Part shown: piece after piece, positions 1 through 21,181 of the stretch
Layout of the letters: each line of letters begins with the position of its first letter
Numbering within the stretch: position 1 is the stretch's first letter
DNA from: Deltaproteobacteria bacterium
GTDB lineage: Bacteria > Desulfobacterota > Syntrophobacteria > BM002
DNA length: 36,182 nt
Assembly (NCBI GenBank): GCA_020347625.1
Contig: CP070735.1
Span: 151,250-187,431 of the forward strand
Direction: 5' to 3'
The notes under the pieces: generated by a model
What the model saw: only the letters and a program-made list of their open reading frames with translations
Databases searched by the model: none
What the model was told of the DNA's origin: nothing
Program-made: the position numbers and the translations under genes

Positions 1-1851
1 AACCTGCAAGAGATTTCCTCAACTGAAGGTGAGAAATATCTGGACGTTGCCTGGCCAATTTTCGACGGTAAGGCAGGTGTCCTTCGTGCCGGTTTGTCTG
101 AAAAGCCTTACCGACAGCAAGTGACAAAGTTGTGGCTACAGATGAGTGTTGTCACCCTGGTAATTCTTTTTCTCGCTTTAGGGGTTACCCTCCTTCTTGT
201 CAGAAAAGTAACTGGACCTTTGGCGGCGTTAGCAGAAGCCACCCAAAAAATTGACCAGGGAGAATTGGATGTCAGCGTAAAAGTGCAGGGCCATGACGAA
301 GTGAGCAGATTGGCTGCCTCGTTCAACCACATGGTTGGTCGGCTGCGGGAATATACCGGCAAGCTTGAAGAACAGACCATGGAACTGGAGCGCGCCCATC
401 ACCAGACCCGGACCGTTTGTGGAATCGTCCAGGAGGTCGGCGCCCTTCGTTCCCTCAATGAAATCAGCTCTTCGCTGATCAACACCTTCAAGAACATACT
501 AAAATGCAGTCAAATGGTATTTCTCATCTTCAGTAGCAACCGCGATCTCCTGTTTGTCTCTTCGGAGAGTGAAATAAAGGTTTTGAGAGAAAGAGAATCC
601 ATCGAATCTGCTGCTACTTTTCTGACGGATATAACGAAAACCACCCTTATGGAAAAACGCGCTTTCAGTCCTCCGCTGGTGCCGGACCTCTTTCAAACCA
701 CAGCTCGCCAGGTAATCATTCCGATCCTTCACGAAAAAGAGCTGTTTGGCGCATTGGTCATAGGCTGTTCTGAAGACTGTAGCTGTAATGTCAAGGATAT
801 AGACGTGGTTCGGCTGATGCTCACCCAAGCAGCCGGGGTCATCAACCGTGCGGTATTGCAGGAAGAGGAAATGAGAGAACTTCAGGGTCGGGTTGAAAAA
901 ACAGCGGAATTTAGCGGTATTGTCGGTAAAGACCCGAAGATGCAATTGATTTACAAACTCATAGAGGATATCGCCCCCACCGACGCCACCGTTTTGATTC
1001 AGGGAGATAGCGGTACGGGAAAGGAGTTAGTAGCCCGGGCCATTCACCGGCGGAGTCCCCGCAAAAATAAGCCTTTCGTGGTTATCAACTGTTCAGCCTA
1101 TCCTGCCACGCTTCTTGAAAGCGAGCTTTTTGGCCATGAGAAGGGTGCTTTCACCGGAGCCATCCGCCAGAAATCGGGACGTTTCGAGCAGGCTCATGGC
1201 GGTACGGTGTTTCTGGATGAGATTGGTGAAATTGCGCCTTCGGCCCAGATTAAGTTGCTCCGGGTGCTTCAGACCCAGAAATTCGAGCGTCTAGGTGGAG
1301 AAAAGACCTTGAATGTGGACGTTCGCATCATTGCTGCGACCAACAAAGATCTTCTCCAGGAGGTTAAGAAAGGTAATTTCCGTGAAGATCTCTATTATCG
1401 TCTCAATGTCATTCCTGTCCTCCTAGCCCCTCTCGACGAAAGACGAAATGACATTCCTCTGCTAGCGCGCCATTTCTTGAGCGGTTTTGCAACAGAGCAA
1501 GGAAAACAGATCGAGGATTTCAGTCCTGAGGCCATGCGGCTCCTTCTCGACTATTCCTGGCCGGGAAATGTGCGTGAACTGGAAAACACCGTTGAACATG
1601 CCACCGTCCTGGCCAAGGGAACTCGTATCGAAGCTTCGGACTTACCCGCCATGTTTCACTCTGCTGCCGGTAGTACCAGGAAAGCATCTCAAGCATCCAC
1701 CCTTGTGGAGAACGAAATCAAACTATTAGAGGAAGTCCTCAACGAGTGCGGCTGGAACAAGAAACAAGCAGCCAAAAGGTTGGGGATCAGCCGCAGCACC
1801 CTCTACGACAAACTCAAAAAATACCAGATCAACAAGCCCACCACCCATTGA
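1..1851 (+). CDS. Membrane-bound sigma-54-dependent transcriptional activator (HAMP-GAF-AAA+-Fis HTH), 5' truncated by window edge
   Basis: The frame is open from the first base, so the true start and most of a periplasmic sensor domain lie outside the window. Numbered from the first codon seen, a membrane segment lies at about 44-66, a HAMP domain at 67-120, a GAF-like domain at 140-285 and a sigma-54 AAA+ domain at 305-545. The Walker A motif GDSGTGKE is at 335-342 and the sigma-54 contact loop GAFTGA at 382-387. A Fis-type helix-turn-helix is at about 583-607. The protein would open sigma-54 promoters in response to a signal sensed outside the membrane or by the GAF domain, with no separate kinase needed. 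The GAF domain has three close cysteines (256, 260, 262), which could bind As(III) or a metal; this is inference. A matching -24/-12 promoter lies at 6906-6920, ahead of the arr genes, so it is a plausible arr regulator, but the target is not proven. Confidence 0.93.
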
Positions 1852-2770: not shown

Positions 2771-3328
2771 ATGCCAGCTCAAAAGAAGATTACGGTGTTG
2801 TTCCTCTGTACCGGAAACTCATGTCGAAGTCAGATGGCCGAAGGATGGACCAGACACCTGAAAAGGAATTTGGTCGAAGCGCACTCTGCCGGGGTAAATC
2901 CCAAAGGGGTAGATCCAAGGGCGGTGAAGGCTATGGCAGAAACTGGCGTTGATATCTCGAAACAGGGCTCCAAATCTCTTGATGAAATAAGACACATCGA
3001 GTTCGATTACGTGATCACCCTCTGTGACAACGCCCATAAAACCTGCCCCATCTTCCCTGCCAAAACCAGGGTTATGCATGTGGGCTTTGAGGATCCCCCG
3101 AGGCTGGCGGAAAAGGCTAAGGATGAAGAAGAAGCCATGGCACACTACCGGAGGATCCGTGACGAAATCAGAGTCTTTGTGGATGGGCTACCTGAACGTT
3201 TATTTAGCGAAGAATCGGGAATTTCTGCCAACCAGCAACTGTTGTTCGAAAGTGGGATTGAATCATTCCTGAACCAGATGCCCAAAGAACATTTGCATGA
3301 AAGCGACGACCGGGAGGAAGATAAATGA
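2771..3328 (+). CDS. arsC: Arsenate reductase, thioredoxin-coupled (low-molecular-weight phosphatase fold)
   Basis: The protein reduces cytoplasmic arsenate to arsenite for export. The N-terminal phosphatase loop CTGNSCRS starts at C13. Two more cysteines, C85 and C92, are spaced as in the S. aureus type (C82/C89), giving the triple-Cys relay that ends in a disulfide resolved by thioredoxin. The DPPR segment near 108-111 holds the general acid. At 185 residues it is about 45 longer than the usual 130-140; the extra C-terminal part is charged, contains a possible helix, and has no recognised domain. The start at ATG 2771 follows a GAAGGAACGAGG purine run. It overlaps acr3 by 4 bases, indicating translational coupling. 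Function is confident; the role of the tail is unknown. Confidence 0.93.
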
Positions 3329-4527
3329 GTGAAGCCACAGTTGATCAACTTACCCTTGAAGAGCCGCGCAAAGGTCTGAGTCTTTTTGAGAAATACCTTT
3401 CAGTATGGGTCATTCTCTGCATTGTCGCCGGAATTGTCCTTGGAAAAGTGGCCCCTGGATTTGCCAAGTATCTTGATGGCTTGGCCATTTATGTCGGCGA
3501 AGCCCCGGTGGTCTCCATTCCCATTGCGATTTGCCTCTTTTTCATGATGTATCCCATCATGGTGAAAATTGACTTTGGTGAGGTCGTCAGAGCCGGAAAA
3601 AATGTTAGACCGGTGGCTCTTACCCTGTTTGTGAACTGGGCTATAAAGCCCTTCACCATGTATGCCATCTCTATCTTTTTCCTCGGCACCCTCTTTTATG
3701 GCTTTATAGGACCTGAAGCGATGGACTATGTGAAGATGCCTCTGGGGCTGAATCTTCCCGTGGGTGCAACCCACGGGGCCGGCAAAGTGGTATTCATGGA
3801 AGGCGTAAAAATGCTTGAAGTGCCTCTGTGGCGTAGCTATCTTGCCGGCTGCATTCTACTGGGGATTGCCCCGTGTACCGCCATGGTCCTGGTGTGGGGC
3901 TTTCTGGCACGGGGGAATGATGGCCATACCCTGGTCATGGTCGCCATAAACTCCCTGACCATGCTTTTTCTCTATGGACCATTGGGAGGATTCTTACTGG
4001 GCGTAGGCCGACTGCCAATTCCCTGGCAAGCATTAGTTCTATCCATTGGGATATATGTTGCCCTTCCCCTGGTGGCAGGGTACATCTCACGTAAACTTAT
4101 TATCCGCGCTCGAGGTGAGCAATGGTTCAAAGAAAAGTTTCTTCACGTCTTGACCCCGATAACCATTACGGCGCTCCTCATTACCTTGGTACTGCTTTTT
4201 TCCTTCAAGGGAAACGTGATTATCTCCAATCCCCTCACCATCCTCTGGATTGCCATTCCATTATTCATCCAGACCAACCTTATCTTTTGGCTGGGTTATG
4301 GTTTATCCAAACCACTGAACCTCACTTATGAAGACGCGGCTCCTTCAGCTATGATCGGAGCGTCCAACCATTTTGAGGTGGCTATAGCCACTGCGACCAT
4401 GCTCTTCGGGCTTTCTTCCGGCGCAGCGCTCGCTACGGTGGTGGGTGTTCTCATTGAAGTGCCAGTGATGCTCATGCTGGTTAAGATCTGTCTGGGAACC
4501 CAGAAGTGGTTTCCGAGAGCTAATTGA
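3325..4527 (+). CDS. acr3: Arsenite efflux permease, ACR3 family
   Basis: This 400-residue protein has about ten hydrophobic segments and the ACR3 landmarks: GIAPCTAMV with the conserved functional Cys (C184), and a C-terminal block including [11 protein letters not shown]. It exports As(III) made by ArsC (and arsenite returning from respiration) across the inner membrane using the proton motive force. The region at about 128-168, before the segment with C184, looks longer than in the ACR3 proteins I remember. The start overlaps the arsC stop (ATGA), so the two are one transcript. No separate ArsA ATPase is present, as is normal for ACR3. Confidence 0.95.
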
Positions 4528-6480: not shown

Positions 6481-6905
6481 TGCGTTTCAAAATCACTCCT
6501 ATATCCCCCCCTACTGAGAGGGACTTATGTTGCCTTCCCAGGAGGCAAATTATTAGGCTGCCCGAAAAATTTTTTTCCTGGTCTGCTGGGAAAGAAAAAA
6601 ATCTCATATATTCTGTGTACGAATGCCGGTGGGCAGATTTAGTGTCCGAATTCCATACACTGCTAACAAATCTTTTTTATTCAATAAAACTGGAAGTTGA
6701 GAAAAGATGTCGGCTATTAAGACAATGAAGGTCCTTCCAAAGCTTCCTTTCTCTATCCCTTGCGTCATAGCGGTAGCCCAATTTCTTCATCCTAAATTCT
6801 CCGCAGAATTGAAACAATTATCATTATATTCCCAATAGTTATTATGACTCCTCCCGGCAGCCTTACCTGACCTGACAAACCCTTCTACCGGTAAATTCCT
6901 AGAGT
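6481..6905. other. Intergenic region upstream of the arr promoter
   Basis: No convincing gene is present. The stretch is rich in A/T runs and contains TTCCCAG near 6534 and CTGGGAA near 6586 as a long-range inverted pair, with a T-run and an A-run around it that could act as a poor bidirectional terminator after tpx. Enhancer sites for the sigma-54 activator would be expected here, 80-200 bp before 6906, but no clear paired palindromes were found by eye. Confidence 0.4.
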
Positions 6906-6920
6906 TGGCATAGAGTTTGC
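6906..6920 (+). promoter_or_regulatory. Sigma-54 (-24/-12) promoter of the arr operon
   Basis: TTGGCATAGAGTTTGC has GG (6907-6908) and GC (6919-6920) separated by exactly 10 bases, with TTGGCA and TTTGC matching the consensus TGGCAC-N5-TTGC closely. It lies 72 bp upstream of the receiver gene that opens the arr unit, and a sigma-54 activator gene is present at the left end of the window. Transcription would start near 6932. Confidence 0.72.
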
Positions 6921-6991
6921 CCATATGTTAACGGCAATGGCTAGCGTGGTCGCCTGGTCTTACTAAGCTTTTAAAATCATTAGGAATCTAA

Positions 6992-7381
6992 ATGCATGAG
7001 CCAGTTGTGGTAGTAGACTCAGATGAAAATCAATGCTTGCAACTCTGCGAACTGCTGGAAGCTGAGCACTATAAAACCACTGCCCTCAATTCCCTTGGCA
7101 GTCTGGAAGGAGCCTTAATCGAAAACGGTTGCCAGATAATATTGTTCGATCTTGACACCTTACCCGTAGATAACCGTTTGTTTAGGGACATTAAAAAAAT
7201 GAATCCCGCCTTGCGCATTATCGGGATCTCGAGTCGTCCCTTTCATCCCGAGTTGCAGGAGGCCATGAGTAAACATATCTACGTAAATCTCAGCAAGCCG
7301 GTAGACGGCGACGAATTGATCTACTGGCTAAAAAGCATCTGTGAAAATGAAGCGGATTCAAGAGATTCACCGGAGACATGA
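6992..7381 (+). CDS. Stand-alone response-regulator receiver protein
   Basis: The 129-residue protein is a single CheY-like receiver domain without an output domain. Acidic residues D9/D11 lie after the first strand, the likely phosphoacceptor is D53 in the ILFDLD strand end, a Ser lies in GISSRP, and the conserved Lys is in NLSKPVD. It is the first gene after the sigma-54 promoter and only about 57 bp before arrA, so it is very likely co-transcribed with it. It might be a phosphate sink or relay, or contact the sigma-54 activator or a kinase outside the window. The last ten residues are polar and not part of the fold. No good ribosome binding site precedes ATG 6992 (TAGGAATCTAA is weak). Confidence 0.85.
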   Translation: MHEPVVVVDSDENQCLQLCELLEAEHYKTTALNSLGSLEGALIENGCQIILFDLDTLPVDNRLFRDIKKMNPALRIIGISSRPFHPELQEAMSKHIYVNLSKPVDGDELIYWLKSICENEADSRDSPET

Positions 7382-7438
7382 GAATCAGAGGTTTGCCATA
7401 GTAGAAGGATGACTTGGGTGAAAATTTATGGAGGCAAA

Positions 7439-10027
7439 ATGGAGGTAAAGGAGAAGAAAAAAATGAAACCAACGATGAAAGATTTCTTAGACGACCTGAA
7501 GCTCTCGAGAAGAACTTTCATGAAAGCCTCGGCAGCCGCAGGCACAGCTGTAGCTACAGGAGCTGCATTGAAACCAACTTTCAGGGCTCTCGCCGAGGCG
7601 AGCACTGCCCCAGCTAGTGCCCAGGGGGAATGGAGGGCAGCCACCTGCCAGGGTTGCACTTCATGGTGCTCAAAACAAGTGCTGGTAATCGACGGTCGGG
7701 CTGTAAAGGCGAGAGGAAATCCCAACTCCAAGGTCAATGGCGGAGCCAGTTGCCCGAGAGTGCATCTGGCTATGCAGCAGGTCTATGATCCGGATCGAGT
7801 TAAGACGCCCATGAAGAGAACCAATCCCAAAAAGGGCAGGAACGAAGATCCGGGATTTGTGCCCATCTCTTGGGACGAAGCCTTGGACACCATTGCCGAC
7901 AAAATCATGGAGCTTAGGAACAACAACGAAACCCACAAGTACATGCTCATGCGAGGAAGATACTCCTATATGAGGGATATTCTCTATGATCGCATGACCA
8001 AGATCATTGGCTCACCAAACAACATCTCCCACAGTTCACTCTGTGCCGAAGCAGAAAAATTTGGTCCTTTCTATACGGAAGGATATTGGGGTTACCGGCA
8101 GTATGACGTTGAAAATGCAAGATGCATCACTGTCTGGGGTGCCGATCCACTGGCTGCAAACCGACAGGTCTCCTACTATTCGAGCGTTTGGGGTAAAGCG
8201 ATTGACCGCGCGCACATTGCTGTGGTTGAACCTAGATTATCTGCCACCGCGGCAAAAGCGGATGAATGGTTCCCAATCAAGCCTGGAGAGGACGGAGCTC
8301 TGGCCGTTGCCTTTGCACATGTCCTTTTGACGGAGGGCCTTTGGTACAAGCCTTTTGTTGGGGATTTCAAAGATGGGGTTAATAAATTTGTGGCCGGTCA
8401 AGAGGTCAACGAAGAAGATTTTGAGGAACTCTATACTCACGGCATTGTCAAGTGGTGGAACCTGGAACTCAAGGACAGAACGGCTGAGTGGGCCGCAGAA
8501 AAAACTGGATTAACGGCAAAACAGATAACAAGACATGCTCGAGAAATGGGTATGGATGCCCCACATTCCATTTCGTGGCTCGGGGGCGGTCCTTGTATGC
8601 AGGTCAGAGGAGGGTACACTGCTATGGCGGTCCACGCCCTGAATGGGATTGTTGGCGCCGTAGACAATGTGGGCGGCACTCTCAAGTCCAACAAGGAGTA
8701 CACCTCGAAGTTTCCCAAGCCGGATGATTTCATGGACGAAATCGCTAAAAAGGGAAAGAAACACGAAAAGATAGACCAGCGGGGTAGGCTCCAATTTCCT
8801 TGTATCAACGCTGGCAAATCCGGCAAAGGGGTAATCACCAATAACGCGGCAGACGGTATCCTCAATGAGGATCCAAACGAGATAAAAGTCGCCATTGCTT
8901 ACATGAACAACTTCGCTTTCTCTGCGCCCCAGCCAGAAAGGTGGGAGAGAGCCTTGTCCAAGATTCCTTTTTTGGCCCACATAACCACCAATGCCTCGGA
9001 ATTCTCCTGGTTTGCCGATATCGTCCTTCCCAATACCCACCACATGTTCGAAAAATGGGGATACGTCAAGTCCATTGGTAACGGCTACCGGCAGGTCACC
9101 CTGCTCCAGCCGGTGATTGAACCGGTGTGGGATTACAAAACGGACGAGACCGAAATTCCCTGGCTGATTGCAGAGAAGTTGGCTGAAAGGGGCTTCCCCA
9201 ATCTGCTCGATCATTACAAGGAGTACAAGGACCCCGAGACCGGGAAAGCCCCCACCAATGAGAAGGAATTCGCCCTCTACTCCCTGAAATATGCCACTCA
9301 GAAGCTGTGGGATCCGGCCAAGCATAAGGGTGGAGACAAGTTCAACGGCTGGGAAGAGTTCAGACAAACCGGGGTCTGGAATTCCGATCCCTACCCGTAC
9401 CGTAAACGGTGGGGAAAAATGAAGAAAACCAAGACCAAGAAGTTCGAGTTTTACAGTGAAACCCTGAAAGAGGCCTTGCAAAAGCATGCCGACAAGCATG
9501 AAACCACCATTGATAAGGTTTTGGAGGTCTGCTTCTACCAGGCCAGGGGTGAAATGGCCTTCGTACCTCACTACGAAGAACCATATGTATTGGGAGATGA
9601 GGCCGAATATCCCTTCGTTCATGTGGACTATAAGTCCAGACTGAACCGTGAAGGCAGATCTGCCAACTGCATGTGGTATCACGAATTCAAGGACGTTGAT
9701 CCCGGAGATGAAAGGTGGGACGACGTTGCCAAATTCAACCCTATAGATGCCAAAAAGATAGGAATAAAAAGTGGAGACAGGATCAGGCTCATATCTCCCA
9801 CCGGAAAACTGGAGTGCACCGCCAAGCTCTGGGAAGGGGTTAGACCAGGCACCATAGCCAAATGCTATGGCCAGGGACACTGGGTCTATGGCAGGCTGGC
9901 ATCCAAGGAGTTCGGCAAGGTGCCCCGAGGTGGTAACAACAATGATCTCATCCCGGCGCAATATGAACGTCTGAGTGGAAGTACAGCATATTACGCCGTT
10001 ACCAGACTTAAAGTTGAGAAAGTCTAA
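7439..10027 (+). CDS. arrA: Respiratory arsenate reductase, molybdopterin catalytic subunit
   Basis: The 862-residue protein belongs to the DMSO-reductase family and aligns from memory along nearly its whole length with Shewanella ArrA. A twin-arginine signal (SRRTFMK, R24-R25) directs folded export. A [4Fe-4S] site is formed by C70, C73, C77 and C105, and the Mo ligand is C202 in HSSLCAEAEKFGP. The RGRY motif (172-175) and K207 match the arsenate-binding residues of ArrA (R165, Y166, K198 there) and argue against arsenite oxidases of the Arx or Aio type. It reduces As(V) to As(III) in the periplasm. Starts at 7409, 7439 (GGAGG 4 bases upstream) and 7463 (AAAGGAG 9 bases upstream) are in frame; I favour 7439 or 7463. 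A very long open frame on the opposite strand is a codon-usage artefact. Confidence 0.97.
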   Translation: MEVKEKKKMKPTMKDFLDDLKLSRRTFMKASAAAGTAVATGAALKPTFRALAEASTAPASAQGEWRAATCQGCTSWCSKQVLVIDGRAVKARGNPNSKVNGGASCPRVHLAMQQVYDPDRVKTPMKRTNPKKGRNEDPGFVPISWDEALDTIADKIMELRNNNETHKYMLMRGRYSYMRDILYDRMTKIIGSPNNISHSSLCAEAEKFGPFYTEGYWGYRQYDVENARCITVWGADPLAANRQVSYYSSVWGKAIDRAHIAVVEPRLSATAAKADEWFPIKPGEDGALAVAFAHVLLTEGLWYKPFVGDFKDGVNKFVAGQEVNEEDFEELYTHGIVKWWNLELKDRTAEWAAEKTGLTAKQITRHAREMGMDAPHSISWLGGGPCMQVRGGYTAMAVHALNGIVGAVDNVGGTLKSNKEYTSKFPKPDDFMDEIAKKGKKHEKIDQRGRLQFPCINAGKSGKGVITNNAADGILNEDPNEIKVAIAYMNNFAFSAPQPERWERALSKIPFLAHITTNASEFSWFADIVLPNTHHMFEKWGYVKSIGNGYRQVTLLQPVIEPVWDYKTDETEIPWLIAEKLAERGFPNLLDHYKEYKDPETGKAPTNEKEFALYSLKYATQKLWDPAKHKGGDKFNGWEEFRQTGVWNSDPYPYRKRWGKMKKTKTKKFEFYSETLKEALQKHADKHETTIDKVLEVCFYQARGEMAFVPHYEEPYVLGDEAEYPFVHVDYKSRLNREGRSANCMWYHEFKDVDPGDERWDDVAKFNPIDAKKIGIKSGDRIRLISPTGKLECTAKLWEGVRPGTIAKCYGQGHWVYGRLASKEFGKVPRGGNNNDLIPAQYERLSGSTAYYAVTRLKVEKV

Positions 10028-10039
10028 GGAGGGAACCAA

Positions 10040-10768
10040 ATGCCAAAATATGCCATGGTCATAGACCTTCAGAGTTGCGTCGGCTGCGGCGCCTGCAGCA
10101 TAGCCTGCAAGAATGAAAATAACCTCTCGGAGGGGATTTTCTGGTCCAGCAAAATAACTGAAACTGTAGGCACATTCCCGAATGTCAGATACCACTATAT
10201 GCCGACCCTTTGTAACCACTGTGAAGACGCCCCATGTGTCAGGGGCTGCCCTACACAGGCCATGCACAAGCTCGACAACGGGATTACCATGCATGATACT
10301 AAAAAATGCATCGGCTGCCGCTACTGCATGTATAACTGCCCCTATGGGGTAATCTCTTTTAACTGGGAGAAACCCTTCAAGTTCTGGCGAGATGATGAAC
10401 CCGTCCTTAAGGGCTGCACCCCATCTCCCCAAGAGGTCGTTAGAAAGGTGAACAACGGCACGGCAACACCGTACTACAACCCTGCAAGAGCAGAGACTCT
10501 CGCTGGGGCGAGGCCCAAGGGTGTTGTGGAAAAGTGTACCTTCTGCGACCACAGGGTTAAGAGGGGAGAACTCCCTTACTGTGTTGAAGCATGTCCCGCC
10601 AACGCCAGAGTTTTTGGGGATCTGGAGAATGGGACCCATGAGATTAAATTCCTTCTCGGGAAGTTCCGTGCTTTCAGATTGAAAGAGCATCTCGGAACCA
10701 AGCCCAAGGTTTATTACATAAGAAACTTTAACCCGGCTGCCTACGATAGAACGAAGGGAGGGGTATAA
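10040..10768 (+). CDS. arrB: Respiratory arsenate reductase, iron-sulfur subunit
   Basis: The 242-residue ferredoxin-like protein has four Cys groups typical of DmsB/PsrB-type subunits: CVGCGACSIAC (from C13), CNHCEDAPCVRGC, CIGCRYCMYNC and a split group with CTFC and CVEAC. It would carry four [4Fe-4S] clusters and pass electrons to ArrA. It has no signal peptide, so it is expected to be co-exported with ArrA through the Tat system. AAGGAGG precedes ATG 10040, 12 bases after the arrA stop. Its stop TAA is directly followed by the arrC ATG. Confidence 0.96.
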   Translation: MPKYAMVIDLQSCVGCGACSIACKNENNLSEGIFWSSKITETVGTFPNVRYHYMPTLCNHCEDAPCVRGCPTQAMHKLDNGITMHDTKKCIGCRYCMYNCPYGVISFNWEKPFKFWRDDEPVLKGCTPSPQEVVRKVNNGTATPYYNPARAETLAGARPKGVVEKCTFCDHRVKRGELPYCVEACPANARVFGDLENGTHEIKFLLGKFRAFRLKEHLGTKPKVYYIRNFNPAAYDRTKGGV

Positions 10769-11896
10769 ATGAAAGGTCGATTATGGATAGGGCTCTTAAG
10801 CCTCGGTATACTCTTAGGCTTGGTCACCGCTTTCAGGGTGTTTTCGACAGGGTTTGTGCTCTACGCTAAGACCGACATCCTGGTCTGGACCATGCCCCTG
10901 GCTGCATATATCTTTTTCTCTCTCACCAGCTCCGGTCTCGCCTTCGTGTCGTCTATACCCATTGTATTCGGGATCAAGCGATACGAGCCACTCGAGAAGC
11001 GTACGGTTTTTCTTGAAATAGCTGTGCTTATGGCTGGTTTTGTCTGTCTCATCATGCACTTGGGGTCGCCGTTGAATGTGATATACTTGTTGCTATCGCC
11101 TAATCTGGCATCACCCCTTTGGTGGCTGGCCATGCTCTACGGAGTCTATCTGGCCGTTCTCTTGGCCTCCTTCTGGCGAATACAGACTGCTCAAGTCAGC
11201 AAAACGCTGAGCACACTGGTGTTTCTCATTGCCATCGCCACATCTACAGCCCTCGGCTGGCTTCTTGGCCTGCCGGATGCCCGGCCCGCTATGAACGGCT
11301 CGTTTCTGACAGTTTACTTTCCACTAACCGCATTTGCCTGCGGTTTAGCGGCGGTACTGCTATTCAGCCTTGCTTACGCCCGTGCTTCTGGCAACCCGAA
11401 CCCGACCAGCGCGGCTCAAGCGGATCTTTATGACGAAGTCGCAAAAGTGTTTGGGGTTGTAATCGGTGTTACGCTTGTCTTGTTCATATGGAGAGCCATT
11501 ATCGGCGGGGTGTCTTCTTCTGAGGTTGAACTCGGAGCATTCAGGCGCATGATGCAGTCGCTGTCTTTCCAAACCGAGCTCTGGCTAGGTTTAGTTGCTC
11601 CATTTGTCTTGATGCTTATCCCATCGGTGCGAGTGACCACGTGGGGCAAAGTCTTGGCGTCGTTATTACTGCTGGTTGGTATGTTTGCCGGGCGGCTTGA
11701 ATTCATCCTGACTGCTGAAATCATGCCCTTTGGGCAGCTGGGAGAAGGAGTGCCACAGTTCGTCAGTTATTTGCCTACCATCTCGGAAGTGTTGGTAGCT
11801 CTTTTTGGACTTGCGGTCATGCTGCTTTTGTACACATTGGGAGAGCGGTACCTTAACCTGGATGGAACGCAAGAGAAGTCTGAGGCAGGTACCTAA
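10769..11896 (+). CDS. arrC: NrfD/PsrC-type membrane subunit of arsenate reductase
   Basis: This 375-residue hydrophobic protein has about nine or ten predicted membrane helices, including segments at the extreme N-terminus, around 40-60, 85-110 and 115-135, and a final one near 340-360. It fits the NrfD/PsrC family of quinol-oxidising membrane anchors. It would take electrons from menaquinol and pass them to ArrB. Shewanella lacks this subunit and uses CymA, while many other arsenate respirers encode ArrC, so this is the ArrABC type. The ATG abuts the arrB stop, with GGGAGGGG upstream, indicating coupled translation. Confidence 0.88.
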   Translation: MKGRLWIGLLSLGILLGLVTAFRVFSTGFVLYAKTDILVWTMPLAAYIFFSLTSSGLAFVSSIPIVFGIKRYEPLEKRTVFLEIAVLMAGFVCLIMHLGSPLNVIYLLLSPNLASPLWWLAMLYGVYLAVLLASFWRIQTAQVSKTLSTLVFLIAIATSTALGWLLGLPDARPAMNGSFLTVYFPLTAFACGLAAVLLFSLAYARASGNPNPTSAAQADLYDEVAKVFGVVIGVTLVLFIWRAIIGGVSSSEVELGAFRRMMQSLSFQTELWLGLVAPFVLMLIPSVRVTTWGKVLASLLLLVGMFAGRLEFILTAEIMPFGQLGEGVPQFVSYLPTISEVLVALFGLAVMLLLYTLGERYLNLDGTQEKSEAGT

Positions 11897-11948
11897 GGGC
11901 GCAAATGATTATTACGTCCCCACGGGTGTCTGTCCGGCATCCATAAGG

Positions 11949-12003
11949 ATTCCTCCCCCTCCTCCCTTTCTCTCATGCCCTCCCGGGGGGTAGGGGGAGG
12001 AAT
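11949..12003. repeat. 12-bp inverted repeat between arrC and arrD
   Basis: ATTCCTCCCCCT (11949-11960) pairs perfectly with AGGGGGAGGAAT (11992-12003) over a 31-base loop that itself contains a CCCGGG-centred symmetry. There is no T-run. It resembles the C/G-rich palindromic repeats scattered in many genomes. In the mRNA it would form a very stable hairpin and could lower arrD expression or protect the arrABC message from 3' decay. Confidence 0.75.
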
Positions 12004-12040
12004 AAGTAAGCGGTAGAACTGTTCAAGCGAGGATATTGAA

Positions 12041-12724
12041 ATGGAAACAGATGAGTTGCTCTCTCGAGAACTTGCCAGAGGTGAGGCATACAAGCTCTTG
12101 GCCGAGTGCTATTACCTGCCAACTCCGGAGTTAAAGATAAAACTGACAGACCTAGAGCAACAGATGACCAATGTCTGCCCCGAAGCGATGCTCTATGTCA
12201 AAAAAATGTCCGAAGAAATTGAGAGGTCAGATGACCTTGATATTCTATCGCTGGATTTCTCCAGACTCTTTTTGGGGCCATACAAAATGCACGCACCTCC
12301 CTATGGATCAGTTTATTTGGACGGTGAGCGACAGATTATGGCGGAATCTACTCTGGAGGTGAGAAAGATCTACAGGGAGTCAGGATTGGATATCTCGAGC
12401 GACTTTCGGAATCCTCCTGACCACGTTGCTGCAGAGCTGGAGTTTATGCATTTCCTCATCTTCAATAAAATCCAGGCGCTGGAGAATTCTGAGGTGGATA
12501 CAGCCTTTGACTACCTGGAAAAACAGAGAGCTTTTTTGACTGAACACCTTGGGGCCTGGGTCTTTGACTTCGCGGATAGCATTGAAGAAAAAGCAGAAAC
12601 TGATTTCTACAAAAATCTGGCAAGGGCCACAAGAGCCTTCATAGCAGAATACTTGGACGAATTGTCAGACCTATCTGAAACCGAAGCGCATGGTCATCCG
12701 TGCATGTCTGTAGCCAATGAATGA
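12041..12724 (+). CDS. arrD: TorD/DmsD-family molybdoenzyme chaperone
   Basis: The 227-residue, all-helical, cytoplasmic protein belongs to the TorD/DmsD chaperone family. The family signature for the conserved loop is seen as NPPDHVAAELEFM at about residues 126-138, and FLGP followed by PPYGSVYLD near 77-93 matches the conserved FxRLFxGP/YxS region. These proteins bind the Tat signal of their own molybdoenzyme and hold it until the cofactor is inserted; here the client should be ArrA. It sits 144 bp after arrC, beyond a strong hairpin. A final His/Cys pair (GHPCMS) is unremarkable. Confidence 0.9.
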   Translation: METDELLSRELARGEAYKLLAECYYLPTPELKIKLTDLEQQMTNVCPEAMLYVKKMSEEIERSDDLDILSLDFSRLFLGPYKMHAPPYGSVYLDGERQIMAESTLEVRKIYRESGLDISSDFRNPPDHVAAELEFMHFLIFNKIQALENSEVDTAFDYLEKQRAFLTEHLGAWVFDFADSIEEKAETDFYKNLARATRAFIAEYLDELSDLSETEAHGHPCMSVANE

Positions 12725-12766
12725 CCGTAAAATTTTAAAACCGTTGAGGTGAAAGGAGGAGGTGCT

Positions 12767-12922
12767 ATGCTTATCGAGATACTCAAAGAACAGTGGATTT
12801 GTTCCTGCGGGAACTGGGTGGATTTGCAACTGTCCTGGTGCCCGGATTGTTGTGAAGAAAAGTTACCCGTCATCCATAGAACCGGTAAGTATGATGAGGT
12901 AATTGCGTCACTTACATCCTAG
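12767..12922 (+). CDS. Small Cys-rich (zinc-ribbon-like) protein in the arr operon
   Basis: This short gene encodes 51 residues and is preceded by GGAGGAGGTG 2-3 bases before ATG 12767, one of the strongest ribosome binding sites in the window. The cysteines are C12, C14, C25, C28 and C29 (motifs CSC and CPDCC), a pattern suiting a zinc ribbon or rubredoxin-like knuckle. It lies 42 bp after arrD and 13 bp before the terminator, so it is the last gene of the arr transcript. I do not know a named family. It might aid ArrA maturation, bind a metal(loid), or modulate another protein. High codon integrity and the ribosome binding site make it very likely real. Confidence 0.75.
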   Translation: MLIEILKEQWICSCGNWVDLQLSWCPDCCEEKLPVIHRTGKYDEVIASLTS

Positions 12923-12935
12923 CTTCTCTATCCGG

Positions 12936-12961
12936 GAGAGGTTAAATACCTCTCTTTTTTT
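12936..12961 (+). terminator. Intrinsic terminator of the arr operon
   Basis: GAGAGGT (12936-12942) pairs with ACCTCTC (12948-12954) across a 5-base loop, directly followed by seven T residues (12955-12961). It is a textbook Rho-independent terminator and fixes the 3' end of the arr unit just after the small Cys-rich gene. Confidence 0.93.
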
Positions 12962-13247: not shown

Positions 13248-14273
13248 GTGCTAAAGACGATAAAAATAGAGGAGGCGGTAGGGAGCAAGCTGGCCCATGA
13301 CATCACCGAGATCCGCCCGGGCGAGTTTAAGGGCCCTGCTTTCAGACGTGGCCACACCGTATGTGAGGCTGACCTCTGTCATCTCCAGCGTTTGGGAAAG
13401 AATCATCTCTACGTCATCGATTTGGCCGATGACGAAATTCACGAAAACGAAGCGGCAGTCATTATGGCTACAGCTCTGGCTGGAGATGGTGTTGTCTGGA
13501 AGGATGGTCCCCGGGAGGGAAAGATTAACCTGCTGGCAGATAGAGACGGTTTGCTTGCTGTGAATACAGCCGCTCTTGCCGCCTTTAACATGGTGGAGGA
13601 GGTCATGTGCGCCACCCTCCACAACCACACTCTGGTAGAGAAAGGTGATTTGCTTGCCGGCACCAGGGCCATTCCGCTGGTTATGAAGCGAGCTCCCATT
13701 GAGAGGGCTGCGGCCATCGCCCGCCAGAACGGTTCAGTACTTTCGGTTCACCCCTTACGGTCCGCTCGCGTGGGTCTAGTGATCACCGGTAACGAGGTCT
13801 ATCACGGTCTCATTCAGGACCGATTCGCTCCCATTCTTACAGAAAAGATAACCGCACTCGGCTCAGAGGTTGCTGCCCTTAACTTTGCTCCGGATGACCC
13901 CGACTTGATCAACCAAGCTATTCGCAGCCAACTGGATCAGGAGTGTGATCTGCTTTTGCTTACTGGCGGGATGAGCGTGGATCCGGATGATGTAACCCGC
14001 CATGGAATCAGGTTGGCAGGAGCAACTGAGGTCAATTATGGTGCCGCCGTACTTCCCGGCTCCATGTTTCTTGTGGCTTACCTGGGTGAGGTGCCACTTC
14101 TCGGTGTACCCGCCTGCGGCCTCTACCATCGGATCACAGTCCTGGATCTGGTGCTGCCTAGAATTCTTGCAGGTGAGAAGATCGGCAAAGCAGAGCTTGC
14201 CTTCCTGGGCCTCGGCGGCCTCTGTAAGGATTGCTCTGAATGCACCTATCCCAAATGTCATTTCGGCAAGTGA
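13248..14273 (+). CDS. MoeA-like molybdopterin-binding protein with C-terminal Cys cluster
   Basis: The 341-residue protein carries the MoCF-biosynthesis (MoeA/MogA-type) molybdopterin-binding fold at about 170-310, with LVITGNEV and LLLTGGMSVDPDDVT as its cofactor-binding loops. The N-terminal part is a divergent relative of MoeA domains and is shorter than in true MoeA (about 400 residues). The last 16 residues hold CKDCSECTYPKC, which could bind an iron-sulfur cluster or zinc. It may insert or hand over the molybdenum cofactor for enzymes such as ArrA. GTG 13248 follows TAAGGAGG by 7 bases, so the start is firm. It begins a likely transcript with the TauE-like gene and moaA. Confidence 0.85.
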   Translation: MLKTIKIEEAVGSKLAHDITEIRPGEFKGPAFRRGHTVCEADLCHLQRLGKNHLYVIDLADDEIHENEAAVIMATALAGDGVVWKDGPREGKINLLADRDGLLAVNTAALAAFNMVEEVMCATLHNHTLVEKGDLLAGTRAIPLVMKRAPIERAAAIARQNGSVLSVHPLRSARVGLVITGNEVYHGLIQDRFAPILTEKITALGSEVAALNFAPDDPDLINQAIRSQLDQECDLLLLTGGMSVDPDDVTRHGIRLAGATEVNYGAAVLPGSMFLVAYLGEVPLLGVPACGLYHRITVLDLVLPRILAGEKIGKAELAFLGLGGLCKDCSECTYPKCHFGK

Positions 14274-14295
14274 AGTCTAGAACGAGGTATCAATC

Positions 14296-15060
14296 ATTTT
14301 AGATAGCATCAACATATGGCAATACTATCTAGCTGGTTTATTCTTTCTTATCGCATTCGTCTATTCTTCCGTGGGTTTAGGTGGGGGATCTTCTTACACA
14401 GCATTGATGGCTGTCTTTGGGCTGAACACATTAGAGATCCCCATGGTTTCTCTCACACTTAATTTATTTGCTACTTCAGTCGGCAGCTATAACTTTATCC
14501 GTAACAAACATGCCAAGCTAAGACTCATTTTACCTTTCCTTATTTCGTCAATACCTATGGCTTATGTCGGAGGTGCTCTTAAGGTACCGAAGGAAATCTT
14601 TTATTGGATACTTTTGGTATCACTAGTTCTCGTGGCTGCACGTATATATATTTGGGAAAATACCACCATTAGATTCAATATAAGTCAGATAGGGAAATTA
14701 ATCGTTTCATTACTCATCGGCTCTATTCTAGGCCTCATTGCCGGTATAGTTGGAATAGGCGGCGGTATTTATCTCGTGCCGATAATTATTATTCTGGGGC
14801 TGGGGACAGAAAAAGAAGCTGCAGCTTGTGGGGTAATTTTCGTTTGGATTAATTCATTATCTGGTCTGATTGCCAGACTTCAATATAACTCAATTGATTT
14901 AACCAGTCATATTCCTCTCATCAGCGCGGTTTTAATAGGGAGCGCCTTGGGATCATTCATGGGGTCGTTCAAATATTCTCCCAAGACTATGCAAAGAATA
15001 TTAGGATTTATAATCATTATTGCCATTTCTTTATTAACCAGGAAGGCTTTAATAATTTAA
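14296..15060 (+). CDS. TauE/SafE-family membrane permease, apparently with a non-standard ATT start
   Basis: This is a membrane protein with seven or eight helices of the TauE/SafE (DUF81) family, with two glycine-rich repeats (SSVGLGGGSSYTA and VGIGGGIYLVP) typical of the family. Members export or import small sulfur anions or other oxyanions. The first standard start codon is GTG 14371, but that would delete the first helix, whose sequence (WQYYLAGLFFLIAFVYSS) is plainly coding. In frame, the reading extends to a stop at 14278-14280 with no ATG, GTG or TTG. GAGG at 14284-14287 lies 8 bases before ATT 14296, my preferred start; ATC 14293 is the alternative. It sits between two molybdenum cofactor genes, so an oxyanion role is plausible but unproven. 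Confidence 0.78.
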   Translation: MLDSINIWQYYLAGLFFLIAFVYSSVGLGGGSSYTALMAVFGLNTLEIPMVSLTLNLFATSVGSYNFIRNKHAKLRLILPFLISSIPMAYVGGALKVPKEIFYWILLVSLVLVAARIYIWENTTIRFNISQIGKLIVSLLIGSILGLIAGIVGIGGGIYLVPIIIILGLGTEKEAAACGVIFVWINSLSGLIARLQYNSIDLTSHIPLISAVLIGSALGSFMGSFKYSPKTMQRILGFIIIIAISLLTRKALII

Positions 15061-15101
15061 GAAATATGTCGAAGTCAAAATTGTGATTCAGGACAGAGAA
15101 C

Positions 15102-16091
15102 ATGAATATACTCGCCGACACATTCTCCCGGAAAATTAACTACCTTCGCATCTCCATCACTGATCACTGTAATCTGAATTGTCTCTACTGCGTTCCATTC
15201 GGGGGCCGCGTTAGGGTTAGCCATGCAGAGATCTTCTCGTATGAGGAGATTGTGAGGGTCTGTGAAGCGGCAGTTCTGGCAGGAATCTCCAAGTTACGGA
15301 TCACCGGTGGCGAGCCCCTTATGCGAAAGGGGGTGGTTGAACTCTGCCGCATGCTTTCCGGTATCCAAGGATTGGAGAGCCTCACCCTCACTACCAACGG
15401 TGTACGCCTCCGGGAACTCGCCCCGCAGCTTCGCGATGCTGGAGTCCAGAGGGTAAATGTCAGCCTTGACACTCTACGACCTGAAAGGTTCCGTAAGATA
15501 ACGGGGTACAATCTCCTTTCCCAAGTTCTCACCGGGATTTCAATGGCCGAGGAGGTAGGACTTCACCCTGTCAAGATAAACACCGTGGTCATGCGTGGCT
15601 TAAATGAGGACGAGATTGAGGATTTTGCCCGGCTCACCCTAGAAGAACCATATCATGTGAGGTTTATAGAGCTCATGCCCTTCAATGGGTCCAGTGAGCA
15701 CCAGTCTCTCTTTGTGCCGGTGGAAGAAATGGTGAAAAGAGTAAAAAGGGTTGGAGACCTTTCTCTGGAACCTGCTCTTGAGTCGTCCGGGCCAGCCCGG
15801 CTTTGCTCGTTGCCTGGTGCAAAAGGAAAGGTAGGGTTCATCGCCCCTTTGAGTTACCATTTCTGCGGCTCCTGCAATCGTTTGAGACTAACGGCGGATG
15901 GAAAGCTCAGGACCTGTCTCTTCTCCGAACAAGAAATAGACATCAAAGGACCCTTGCGTGCCGGTGCCTCCACTGAAGAACTCGTGGATACATACAGACT
16001 TGCCGCAATGAGAAAACCCCATGGCCACCATCTGAATTCAACCCATGTTGAAAAATATTTTGGGCGGGGTATGCAGGCTATAGGAGGATGA
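15102..16091 (+). CDS. moaA: GTP 3',8-cyclase, molybdenum cofactor biosynthesis protein A
   Basis: A radical SAM enzyme that converts GTP to 3',8-cyclo-GTP, the first step of molybdopterin synthesis, with MoaC. The N-terminal cluster CNLNCLYC binds the SAM-linked [4Fe-4S], GGEP lies near residue 70, and the C-terminal cluster (CGSCNRLRLTADGKLRTC) binds the GTP-contacting [4Fe-4S]. The chain ends in GG, needed in MoaA for activity. The 329-residue length is normal. It follows the TauE-like gene by 41 bp. The other moa genes are not in the window. Confidence 0.96.
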   Translation: MNILADTFSRKINYLRISITDHCNLNCLYCVPFGGRVRVSHAEIFSYEEIVRVCEAAVLAGISKLRITGGEPLMRKGVVELCRMLSGIQGLESLTLTTNGVRLRELAPQLRDAGVQRVNVSLDTLRPERFRKITGYNLLSQVLTGISMAEEVGLHPVKINTVVMRGLNEDEIEDFARLTLEEPYHVRFIELMPFNGSSEHQSLFVPVEEMVKRVKRVGDLSLEPALESSGPARLCSLPGAKGKVGFIAPLSYHFCGSCNRLRLTADGKLRTCLFSEQEIDIKGPLRAGASTEELVDTYRLAAMRKPHGHHLNSTHVEKYFGRGMQAIGG

Positions 16092-18264: not shown

Positions 18265-18894
18265 ATGAAGCCTTTTGAAGATTTGTTGGCTACGTCGGCC
18301 GCAGTCCATGGTCATATGTGTCCCGGACAAGTAGTAGGAGTTCGCATGGCCATGTTGGGCTGTCGCCTGATCGGCCTGGACGATCCCACCAGCCACGATC
18401 AAATAAAAAAACTTATTGTCTATGTGGAAATGGACAGATGTGCAGGTGATGCGGTTGCCCACGTCACCGGTGCCAAGCTGGGGCGGCGATCTCTAAAGTT
18501 TGTGGACTACGGTATCATGGCCGCAACCTTCGTAAACCTTGATACCGGCAAGGCTTTTAGGGTGCTCTCCACTGAGGAAGCCCGCGACCTGGCATGTCAA
18601 TATGCCCCGGAGGTATCTGAGAAATACAAGCAGCAGCTCGAAGCCTACAAAAGGATGCCGGACAGCGTCCTTTTCAGAGTGCAGCAGGTAGAGGTTCCGT
18701 TGAGCGAGTTTGATTTGCCCGGGCCGACCCGGCGAAAAGTTTCGTGCAACCGCTGTGGTCAAGTTGTTAGGGATCACCGCGAGATAGTGCAAAATGGTGA
18801 CACCCTTTGCCAACCTTGCGCTCACGGCGCATATTTCAGAGATCCAAAGGAGATCACCTGGCCGGATATGAATTGGACACCCGTATCCAGCTAG
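18265..18894 (+). CDS. FmdE-family protein with C-terminal zinc ribbon
   Basis: The 209-residue protein has an N-terminal FmdE domain with HGHMCPGQVVG and a conserved DRCAGDAV segment, followed at about 155-190 by a zinc ribbon (CNRCG and CQPC). FmdE was named for the formylmethanofuran dehydrogenase operon of methanogens; in bacteria such proteins are widespread near molybdenum or tungsten enzyme and cofactor genes, with unproven function. Cys and His in the first motif may bind a metal. AGGAG lies 10 bases upstream of ATG 18265. It follows the UbiD-family gene by 92 bp and could be in one transcript with it. Confidence 0.88.
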   Translation: MKPFEDLLATSAAVHGHMCPGQVVGVRMAMLGCRLIGLDDPTSHDQIKKLIVYVEMDRCAGDAVAHVTGAKLGRRSLKFVDYGIMAATFVNLDTGKAFRVLSTEEARDLACQYAPEVSEKYKQQLEAYKRMPDSVLFRVQQVEVPLSEFDLPGPTRRKVSCNRCGQVVRDHREIVQNGDTLCQPCAHGAYFRDPKEITWPDMNWTPVSS

Positions 18895-19390: not shown

Positions 19391-21166
19391 ATGTTTTTTA
19401 CCGTTGCCTTATATACATCCCTGGCCATTTTTTCTCTTGGTCTCATTTACAAGGTCTCTACCTGGTTTCGCTACTCCCTGGGGATAGAGGCCAAAAATAT
19501 TTCCACCCCGGCGAGGCTTTTTGCAGCCCTTAGAGGAATTATCCTGACATTTTTCAGCCCGAAGTTATTCACCCTGCTCAAGGTATTCGTTCTGGATGTC
19601 CTTCTGCAGGTCAAAGTACTAAAACAGGACTTTCTCAAATGGGCCATGCATATGTGTATATATTATGGCTTTCTTCTGCTACTGCTTATGCATGGACTCG
19701 ACAAAATAGTCACCTCCGCCCTTTTCCCGGAATACTATTCAACGGTTAACCCTTTTCTCTTTCTGCGAGATTTTTTCGGCGTTCTGGTACTTTTGGGAGT
19801 TGGCATTGCGGTGTATAGACGCTTCATCCTCAAGGTGCCCCGCCTTAGAACCAGCCCCATGGATCTTTACGCCATAATTATCCTGGCGGTTATTATGCTT
19901 TCCGGTTTTCTTTTGGAGGGCACCAAGATAACCTCCTACACCAAGTACCAGGAGATGGTGGAAGAGTACACAGTAGCGGCCGATGAAGAAGAGCTTAGAT
20001 CTTTAGAGGCTTACTGGGTCGCAAAATTTGGCGTGGTCTCACCCGAGGTCAAAGGCCCCTTTGACGCTGATACTCTTGCGGCGGGCAAAGAAGCCCATGA
20101 AATGAGTTGCCTTCAGTGCCATTCTCGTCCACAGTGGGGATTCACCGGATATACGGTGGCCAAAGTTACTAAACCGGTGGCGCCACTGTTGGATAGGGCG
20201 AAGGCGTCCAGCATTCTCTTGTATATCCACTTCTTGGCTTGTTTCATTGGTCTTGCCTACCTTCCATTCAGCAAGATGTTCCATATTTTTACCACCCCTT
20301 TGAGCCTGTTGGTAAATAGTGTCATGGAGGAAGGAAAATCGGCTCCGGCCAATATAGCCACTATACAGATGCTGGAATTGGATGCCTGCATGCACTGCGG
20401 GACCTGCAGTGTTCAGTGTAGGGTGGGCGTTGTCTTTGAAACGCTGCGCAATCTCAATATTCTGCCATCAGAGAAGATACCTTCCATAAAGGCGCTCGTC
20501 ACCGGTAAGAAACTCAGCGCTGAGGAAATTAGAAATATACAGGAGGGGCTACATCTCTGTACCAATTGTCATCGCTGTACAGTGGTCTGCCCTGCCGGAA
20601 TTAATCTACAGGAGTTGTGGCTCAGCGTTAGGGAGACTCTGCTGGAAAGGCACCAGCCCGAATTTTTTGTTCTCTCCCCGCTCTCCCTTTACCGTGGATT
20701 GATGCAGGATTCCTTGGACCCAGACAAGGATCATTACCCCGACCCCATAGAGTTGGCCCTCAAGAATATTTATCCTAATGGTATTCCGTTGCATATGCTA
20801 GATAGCGACACTCCTTTGGTGCCCAGCGACAATGGCCTTTCCGGAAAAGTGTACCAATCGGCCCAGGCTTCCACCTTTTCCCATTGCTTCCGCTGCGTCA
20901 CCTGCACAAACGCCTGTCCGGTGGTACGCAACTATGCAAAGCCGAGCGAAGCCGTGGGACTTCTGCCCCATCAGATTATGCACGCTGCAGGAATGGGACT
21001 CTGGGATATTGTCTTCAGTTCAAGAATGCTGTGGGACTGCCTGGGGTGTTATCAATGTCAGGAGCACTGTCCTCAGGGTGTGTGTGTCGCTGACATCATT
21101 TACGAACTGAAAAACATAGCGGTCACTCGAGCGAAAGAAAAGCTTACTAAACAAGCAAAAACATAA
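19391..21166 (+). CDS. Membrane cytochrome b / heme c / tandem HdrC-like iron-sulfur fusion protein
   Basis: The 591-residue fusion has several N-terminal membrane helices (about 5-25, 85-110, 125-145, 157-177 and 275-295) resembling the NarI/HdrE cytochrome b family, with candidate heme-ligand His at 87, 101, 280 and 298. Between helices four and five is a soluble insert of about 95 residues containing CLQCH (C240-H244), a heme c motif, implying exposure to the periplasm. The cytoplasmic C-terminal half has four [4Fe-4S] Cys groups (from C333, C390, C499 and C550), two HdrC-like pairs. It probably couples the quinone pool to a cytoplasmic partner, most likely the HdrB-like protein 15 bp downstream. 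No Sec signal other than the first helix. ATG 19391 follows AGGGAGGGTCC. The double HdrC part resembles the gene at 4697. Confidence 0.85.
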   Translation: MFFTVALYTSLAIFSLGLIYKVSTWFRYSLGIEAKNISTPARLFAALRGIILTFFSPKLFTLLKVFVLDVLLQVKVLKQDFLKWAMHMCIYYGFLLLLLMHGLDKIVTSALFPEYYSTVNPFLFLRDFFGVLVLLGVGIAVYRRFILKVPRLRTSPMDLYAIIILAVIMLSGFLLEGTKITSYTKYQEMVEEYTVAADEEELRSLEAYWVAKFGVVSPEVKGPFDADTLAAGKEAHEMSCLQCHSRPQWGFTGYTVAKVTKPVAPLLDRAKASSILLYIHFLACFIGLAYLPFSKMFHIFTTPLSLLVNSVMEEGKSAPANIATIQMLELDACMHCGTCSVQCRVGVVFETLRNLNILPSEKIPSIKALVTGKKLSAEEIRNIQEGLHLCTNCHRCTVVCPAGINLQELWLSVRETLLERHQPEFFVLSPLSLYRGLMQDSLDPDKDHYPDPIELALKNIYPNGIPLHMLDSDTPLVPSDNGLSGKVYQSAQASTFSHCFRCVTCTNACPVVRNYAKPSEAVGLLPHQIMHAAGMGLWDIVFSSRMLWDCLGCYQCQEHCPQGVCVADIIYELKNIAVTRAKEKLTKQAKT

Positions 21167-21181
21167 AGGACGGATGCAATC

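Follow-up and report, generated by a model that had tools for sequence, protein, structure and literature searches.

What switches on the respiratory arsenate reductase (arr) operon of a sulfate-reducer-type bacterium is the question raised by a 36,182-nucleotide stretch of Deltaproteobacteria DNA (assembly GCA_020347625.1, contig CP070735.1, positions 151,250 to 187,431; hereafter the window), in which an earlier note had described positions 6906–12961 as a complete transcription unit made up of a sigma-54 promoter, a stand-alone receiver gene, arrABCD, a small Cys-rich gene and a terminator. Taking that interval as the whole unit left out the likely activator, a transmembrane sigma-54 enhancer-binding protein (EBP) whose C-terminal part is encoded at 94–1851. 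The reading favoured here, at a probability of about 0.7, is that the operon is sigma-54-controlled and run by a kinase-free variant of arsenic XSR sensing (binding protein X, kinase S, regulator R) with a separate, degenerate receiver. The window genome is 3.22 Mb long, in one scaffolded contig, 87.5% complete, with Desulfobacterota-type metagenome-assembled genomes as its nearest relatives. It was compared with 73 fetched loci encoding ArrA relatives (labelled L0xx, the window's own locus being L001), among which 31 related arr loci with a receiver are the basis for the promoter and receiver counts, and 47 loci with at least 3.5 kb of upstream sequence the basis for the co-occurrence counts of activator, receiver and X; genome-wide motif work consisted of pattern searches only.

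The promoter, TGGCATAGAGTTTGCC (6906–6921, + strand; GG at 6907–6908, N10, GC at 6919–6920), is of the -24/-12 type; the host genome has a single rpoN (sigma-54) gene, and the pattern TGGC-N7-TTGC occurs in it 273 times against 63 for the reversed pattern, more than four times as often. A strong -24/-12 site stands 40–95 nt upstream of the receiver start in 26 of the 31 related loci, whereas the same criterion picks out 0.94% of 13,814 control bands (binomial p 3e-48, a value overstated by the non-independence of related loci). Because this position recurs so far above background, the window promoter is judged real and conserved in position. Strong sites are generally absent from loci without receiver and activator, the exceptions being scattered matches in L043, L064 and L069 and loci with an AtoC-type ArrR: in L051, L052, L057, L061 and L063 (Nitrospirota/Desulfobulbales-type), which have an ArrR-type AAA+ gene, a -24/-12-like site scoring 12.9–14.4 of 15.4 lies upstream of arrA. 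An RNA element in the leader was rejected as a candidate, there being no Rfam match anywhere in the window.

Upstream of these promoters, an unbiased dyad search returned GTCC-N7-GGAC in 10 loci and TGTC-N9-GACA in 8 (usual maximum in shuffles, 3–6), and the two dyads merge into one palindrome, TGTGTCCG-N5-CGGACACA. The palindromes are paired across loci at a conserved spacing of 64–67 bp, a partner at that distance outscoring every other spacing in 19 of 25 loci; with a leave-one-out motif, the best held-out site ranks first in its whole locus in 20 of 26 cases and among the top three in 24. In the window, predicted upstream activating site 1, AGTGTCCGAATTCCATACACT (6641–6661, +), ranks first of 36,162 positions by the leave-one-out motif and is the one exact match to the site pattern in the entire 3.2-Mb host genome; predicted site 2 (6706–6726, +), 65 bp away, is degenerate, at 6.8–7.8 bits. 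An enhancer-like palindrome is also found close to the start of the X–activator genes in L106 (8378–8398) and L017 (about 5790), which suggests autoregulation in those two loci.

The protein that would occupy these sites is read at 94–1851 (+) as the C-terminal 585 aa of an EBP, comprising the second transmembrane segment (TM2), HAMP, GAF, AAA+ and Fis domains (Pfam Sigma54_activat 7.6e-74, HAMP, HTH_8), with the GAFTGA and Walker A motifs visible in the sequence and HTH_8 as the Fis-type helix-turn-helix (HTH). Relatives of 733–763 aa run from TM1 through a periplasmic domain, TM2, HAMP, GAF and AAA+ to the Fis HTH, and neither the activator nor its relatives contain a receiver domain. The GAF domain (409–909, +) holds four near-invariant cysteines (EBP residues 138, 225, 229 and 231; C...C-x3-C-x-C), three of them invariant in 23/23 relatives and the fourth in 22/23, and in an alignment of 16 activators GAF cysteines supply three of only five invariant columns; this near-invariance suggests a metal, Fe-S, redox or As(III) site. 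An AlphaFold model of the GAF piece (predicted local distance difference test score, pLDDT, 89) matches GAF domains in the PDB, including one from another sigma-54 regulator, and the topology would allow the Cys that precedes strand 1 to come together with the three that follow the last strand. For the periplasmic piece, the model (pLDDT 84) finds its matches among Cache/PAS sensor domains, that of WalK included, and the periplasmic half resembles the sensor half of ArrS, the kinase type of L051, L052 and L063 (hhalign E 1.1e-6, probability 91%), which gives the activator the appearance of a sensor half with an AAA+ output attached.

The first ~120–150 activator codons fall in a 100-N assembly gap (L001 11151–11250) about 1–99 bases upstream of window base 1; since the break coincides with the 100 N, an N-terminal truncation by real mutation was rejected in favour of an assembly artefact. 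Unrelated ABC-transporter genes lie beyond the gap, and the scaffold join may be wrong. Descent of the activator from ArrR by fission or fusion was considered and is not supported: its AAA+ domain stands apart from ArrR, in a weakly resolved tree, and the receivers of ArrR are a poorer match to the receiver profile than other receivers are.

The probable partner of the activator in other genomes is X, a PhnD-fold lipoprotein whose gene adjoins that of the activator in 20 of the 21 activator loci whose upstream sequence is long enough, and lies directly before it wherever the order can be read; only the window, with its break in the assembly at this point, departs from the pattern. Its best solved-structure match is ArrX (3.7e-54), ahead of AioX, and the ArrX of Chrysiogenes arsenatis binds arsenate with a Kd of about 1 uM (PMC5908839). 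In none of the activator loci did a histidine-kinase core turn up within 6 kb, whereas L051, L052 and L063 have X, a kinase and a receiver-AAA+ regulator in a row. The ArrX of such Nitrospirota/Desulfobulbales loci (L051 4928–6649, L063 5191–6900) is about 570 aa long with two PhnD-type domains in tandem, seen in L051 as two Phosphonate-bd stretches.

The receiver (6992–7381, +; 129 aa) is the first gene of the operon in the window and in every related locus, and is degenerate, its Response_reg score of 31.0 bits barely passing the cut-off of 30.2 and falling to a sub-threshold 21.8 in L022. The equivalent of CheY D13 is acidic in none of the 31 relatives and that of D12 is lost in 18, while the D57 equivalent is kept in 29 (Asn in the other 2), the T87 equivalent is Ser in all 31 and the K109 equivalent is kept in 29. 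The best conserved stretch, HPEL...KPxDxDEL, corresponds to the alpha4-beta5-alpha5 region and not to the pocket. A role as a transcription regulator, and with it that of the activator, was set aside for want of an output domain; the receiver appears poorly equipped for phosphorylation and probably binds the activator as a feedback or adaptor protein. Activator and receiver occur together in 21 of the 47 loci, the activator never without the receiver and the receiver alone in 2 of 26 (Fisher 2e-11); both receiver-only genomes have the activator elsewhere, in L106 as a copy with in-frame stops that may be assembly errors. In L029 (Desulfoluna), receiver, promoter and full-length activator are all lacking together. 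Second copies of the activator–receiver pair, away from any visible arr operon, were seen at L104 6895–9838 (the genome of L004), where the gene downstream of the pair is cut by an N gap, and at L105 6978–10139 (the genome of L030).

From these components a route from arsenate to transcription can be proposed. Periplasmic X would bind arsenate and then engage the periplasmic domain of the activator, in which a kinase-like sensor half (TM-Cache-TM-HAMP) is followed by a Cys-rich GAF, AAA+ and Fis in place of the kinase core; the signal would run through HAMP and GAF to free the AAA+ ATPase, and activators seated on the two palindromes ~65 bp apart would remodel sigma-54 polymerase at 6906–6921, leading to transcription of receiver-arrABCD. 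The receiver, as the first operon product, would in turn bind the activator, in feedback or as an adaptor. A more specific version, put forward only tentatively and somewhat doubtful as it stands, is that X acts directly on the membrane AAA+ activator, that the four-Cys GAF domain is a second input reading redox state, an Fe-S cluster or the product As(III), and that the pseudo-receiver sets activator output; were this two-input arrangement true, arr would be on only with arsenate outside and a suitable cell state.

Two alternatives concern the parts and two the wiring. A coincidental -24/-12 match, with the operon transcribed from a sigma-70-type promoter instead, is barely credible: consensus sites do arise by chance, and two sigma-70-like matches lie upstream (1.1 expected), but both are weak, and the position-specific conservation described above (p about 1e-48, with the same overstatement) opposes it. 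That the enzyme is an Arx-type arsenite oxidase or a polysulfide/thiosulfate reductase is very unlikely. It would account for scores under the curated NCBIfam cut-offs (ArrA 1320 of 1600 bits, ArrB 319 of 450), which make the protein an ArrA-clade member only, and for a gene order ABC, described for polysulfide reductase (Psr), as against CAB for Arr (PMC2500031). Yet the window ArrA is 61.0% identical over 799 residues to ArrA of Shewanella sp. ANA-3 (6cz7) and 36% identical to two ArxA-type proteins encoded beside plasmid X-S-R genes, and it groups with ArrA apart from ArxA (Shimodaira–Hasegawa-like approximate likelihood ratio test, SH-aLRT, 100, the ANA-3 row being long-branched and flagged by the program), inside a large clade that spans Desulfobacterota and further phyla and is separate from the ANA-3 row; the stretch RGRYS...NISHSS-CAEA-K is near-identical to that of 6cz7 in alignment, no arxB'-like gene lies upstream, and X is closer to ArrX than to AioX. 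An Arx or Psr identity was rejected on sequence identity and tree, and the operon is Arr-type by predicted enzyme. The window protein also has a twin-arginine translocation (Tat) signal, the Fe4S4 domain, the Mo-ligand Cys and the surrounding pocket residues, particular ones of which we take to bind arsenate. Its low NCBIfam scores, set beside the identity and the grouping, make the ArrA and ArrB cut-offs look too strict for this clade, whose Desulfobacterota arsenate reductases may for that reason escape automated annotation.

As to the wiring, an unlinked histidine kinase might phosphorylate the receiver, which would in turn address either the transmembrane activator or a different one of NtrC type at the sigma-54 promoter. 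The mostly kept D57, T87 and K109 equivalents would suit such a scheme, as would the 17 further strong sigma-54 activators in the host genome, some with receivers, and there is a parallel in VemR, a stand-alone receiver of the Xanthomonas fleQ/rpoN2 operon that is genetically upstream of FleQ (PMC7036368). It is nevertheless unlikely, given the degenerate Mg2+-binding acidic pair, the Asn at the phosphorylation site of two relatives, the lack of a kinase core within 6 kb in any activator locus and a conservation that is strongest on the 4-5-5 face. A quite unlikely alternative is that some other, unlinked activator serves the promoter and palindromes while the neighbouring transmembrane protein controls something else; the many other activators, which match the window activator in their AAA+ part only, and the pairs found apart from arr in the genomes of L004 and L030 speak for it, whereas activator, receiver and promoter co-occur and are jointly absent in L029, the site motif occurs in its own genome at arr alone, and the site near the X–activator gene start in L106 and L017 fits autoregulation.

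For kinase-free control by the transmembrane activator, several observations count on the other side. No X was found anywhere in the window's own genome, plausibly on account of the 100-N gap, which probably removes the X gene; the same gap is a plausible cause of the missing activator N-terminus. The second palindromic site is weak in the window, the ars genes intervene between activator and arr, putting about 5 kb between them, and the activator–receiver pair of L105 is located apart from arr. The receiver-bearing ArrAs, moreover, fall almost entirely into one clade (27 of 29 rows), with L074 standing apart, so that shared descent explains part of the activator–receiver association, and the linkage may partly reflect inheritance.

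Against known systems, the layout combines familiar and unfamiliar parts. AioR and ArxR are AAA+ proteins with RpoN promoters; the Chrysiogenes ArrR is FixJ/CitB-like, with no RpoN promoter detected, and the ArrR of Epsilonproteobacteria belongs to the AtoC (AAA+) family (PMC5908839), by which sigma-54 control of arr was already implied. The earlier note had called sigma-54 control with an internal receiver non-standard for arr; the layout is indeed unusual, while sigma-54 control alone has this precedent. Like the ArrXSR, ArxXSR and AioXSR systems (PMC5908839), the window-type module places, in the relatives of the window, an ArrX-like PhnD-fold binding protein beside the regulator, has an arsenic molybdoenzyme operon as its presumed target, shares its sigma-54 promoter type with Aio and Arx and, by implication, with AtoC-type ArrR, and has a sensor half resembling ArrS. 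Unlike them, it is without a linked kinase S and without a receiver-AAA+ R; a single membrane protein combines the sensor half with the AAA+-Fis output, a Cys-rich GAF lying between the two, the AAA+ does not group with ArrR, and the small receiver is encoded on its own within the presumed target operon. VemR, beside FleQ and RpoN2 in Xanthomonas (PMC7036368), is likewise a receiver-only protein genetically tied to a sigma-54 activator, but has been studied as a phosphorylatable orphan motility regulator, whereas the window receiver is degenerate and heads its presumed target operon. VnfA and AnfA (PMC9542535) are GAF-AAA+-HTH activators with conserved GAF cysteines, with a possible [3Fe-4S] cluster in VnfA; their GAF is N-terminal, with no membrane or periplasmic part mentioned, and the likeness to the window Cys motif is one of description. 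The ArrAB of Shewanella sp. ANA-3 (6cz7) is matched by a window ArrB that hits the NCBIfam ArrB model below cut-off, while the window ArrA belongs to a distinct clade and is accompanied by NrfD (arrC) and TorD (arrD) genes. In the PspF–PspA system the activator of a sigma-54 operon is inhibited by what the operon's first gene encodes, an analogy for the feedback proposed here, in which the first operon product would act on the activator, with no sequence relationship between the two modules.

The promoter, first-gene receiver and arrABCD of the earlier note are all present at or very near the positions it gave, and an Arr-type enzyme under sigma-54 control is supported, as is the placement of the window protein with ArrA when its phylogeny is drawn. 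The operon comprises arrA, the molybdopterin catalytic subunit (7409–10027, +; NF041714; alternative starts possible at 7440 or 7464), arrB, the [4Fe-4S] subunit (10040–10768, +; NF041715), arrC, the NrfD-type membrane subunit (10769–11896, +; Pfam NrfD 5.5e-18), and arrD, a TorD-type chaperone (12041–12724, +; Pfam Nitrate_red_del 4.6e-33). They are followed by a 51-aa Cys-rich, zinc-ribbon-like open reading frame (12767–12922, +) and an intrinsic terminator (12934–12961, +; stem 12934–12956, 9 pairs, then a T-run). Gene and terminator are thus both there, as the complete unit of the earlier note had them, but the Cys-rich gene, with a relative solely in L016 among the related loci, was rejected as a conserved part of the unit. 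Elsewhere the order is arrB-arrA-arrD, in some cases with an arrC-like match before arrB, as in L031, L032, L036, L038–L041, L043, L069, L072 and L073, from Omnitrophota, Planctomycetota, Lentisphaerota, Chloroflexota and others. L018 (Olavius algarvensis Delta 4 symbiont) has an arrA with an in-frame stop and a promoter weakened at -12 (GT for GC), possibly through decay or sequencing error.

Between the activator and the arr unit lie, in order, an ArsR-type regulator (about 2221–2577; L001 13471–13827), the arsenic resistance genes arsC (2771–3328, +; low-molecular-weight phosphatase type, Pfam LMWPc) and acr3 (3325–4527, +; NCBIfam acr3 above cut-off), an HdrC/QmoC-like Fe-S protein and a thiol peroxidase, while MoCF, TauE, MoaA, UbiD and FmdE genes follow it downstream. 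Orthologues of MoCF and MoaA (13248–16091) and FmdE, 59–78% identical, stand directly behind arr in many relatives, MoCF being molybdopterin-binding (13248–14273, +) and the FmdE-family gene (18265–18894, +) coming directly after arrD in most of them, and the three form an apparent molybdenum-cofactor module tied to Arr. Further downstream, at 19391–22072, a DsrM/DsrK-like pair (NarI-type plus Fe-S protein) is followed by a CCG-domain protein.

As far as could be found, a kinase-free layout of arr control is undescribed. No description of an X–activator–receiver module for arr was met in the open-access literature, subscription papers and preprints lying outside the search and priority not being established; none of the papers searched described control of Desulfobacterota arr genes, and term searches of the Desulfovibrio vulgaris sigma-54 regulome and general sigma-54 papers (PMC4641369, PMC3162934) found no mention of HAMP-bearing membrane activators. 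Arsenic in sediments and groundwater becomes mobile through arsenate respiration, and arrA genes of Desulfobacterota are widespread in marine and subsurface metagenomes. If the proposed control is correct, the module of X, membrane activator and receiver, together with its DNA signature of twin sites and a -24/-12 promoter, would predict which genomes induce arr, and would represent an unusual signalling design in which the signal of a binding protein reaches sigma-54 without a kinase.

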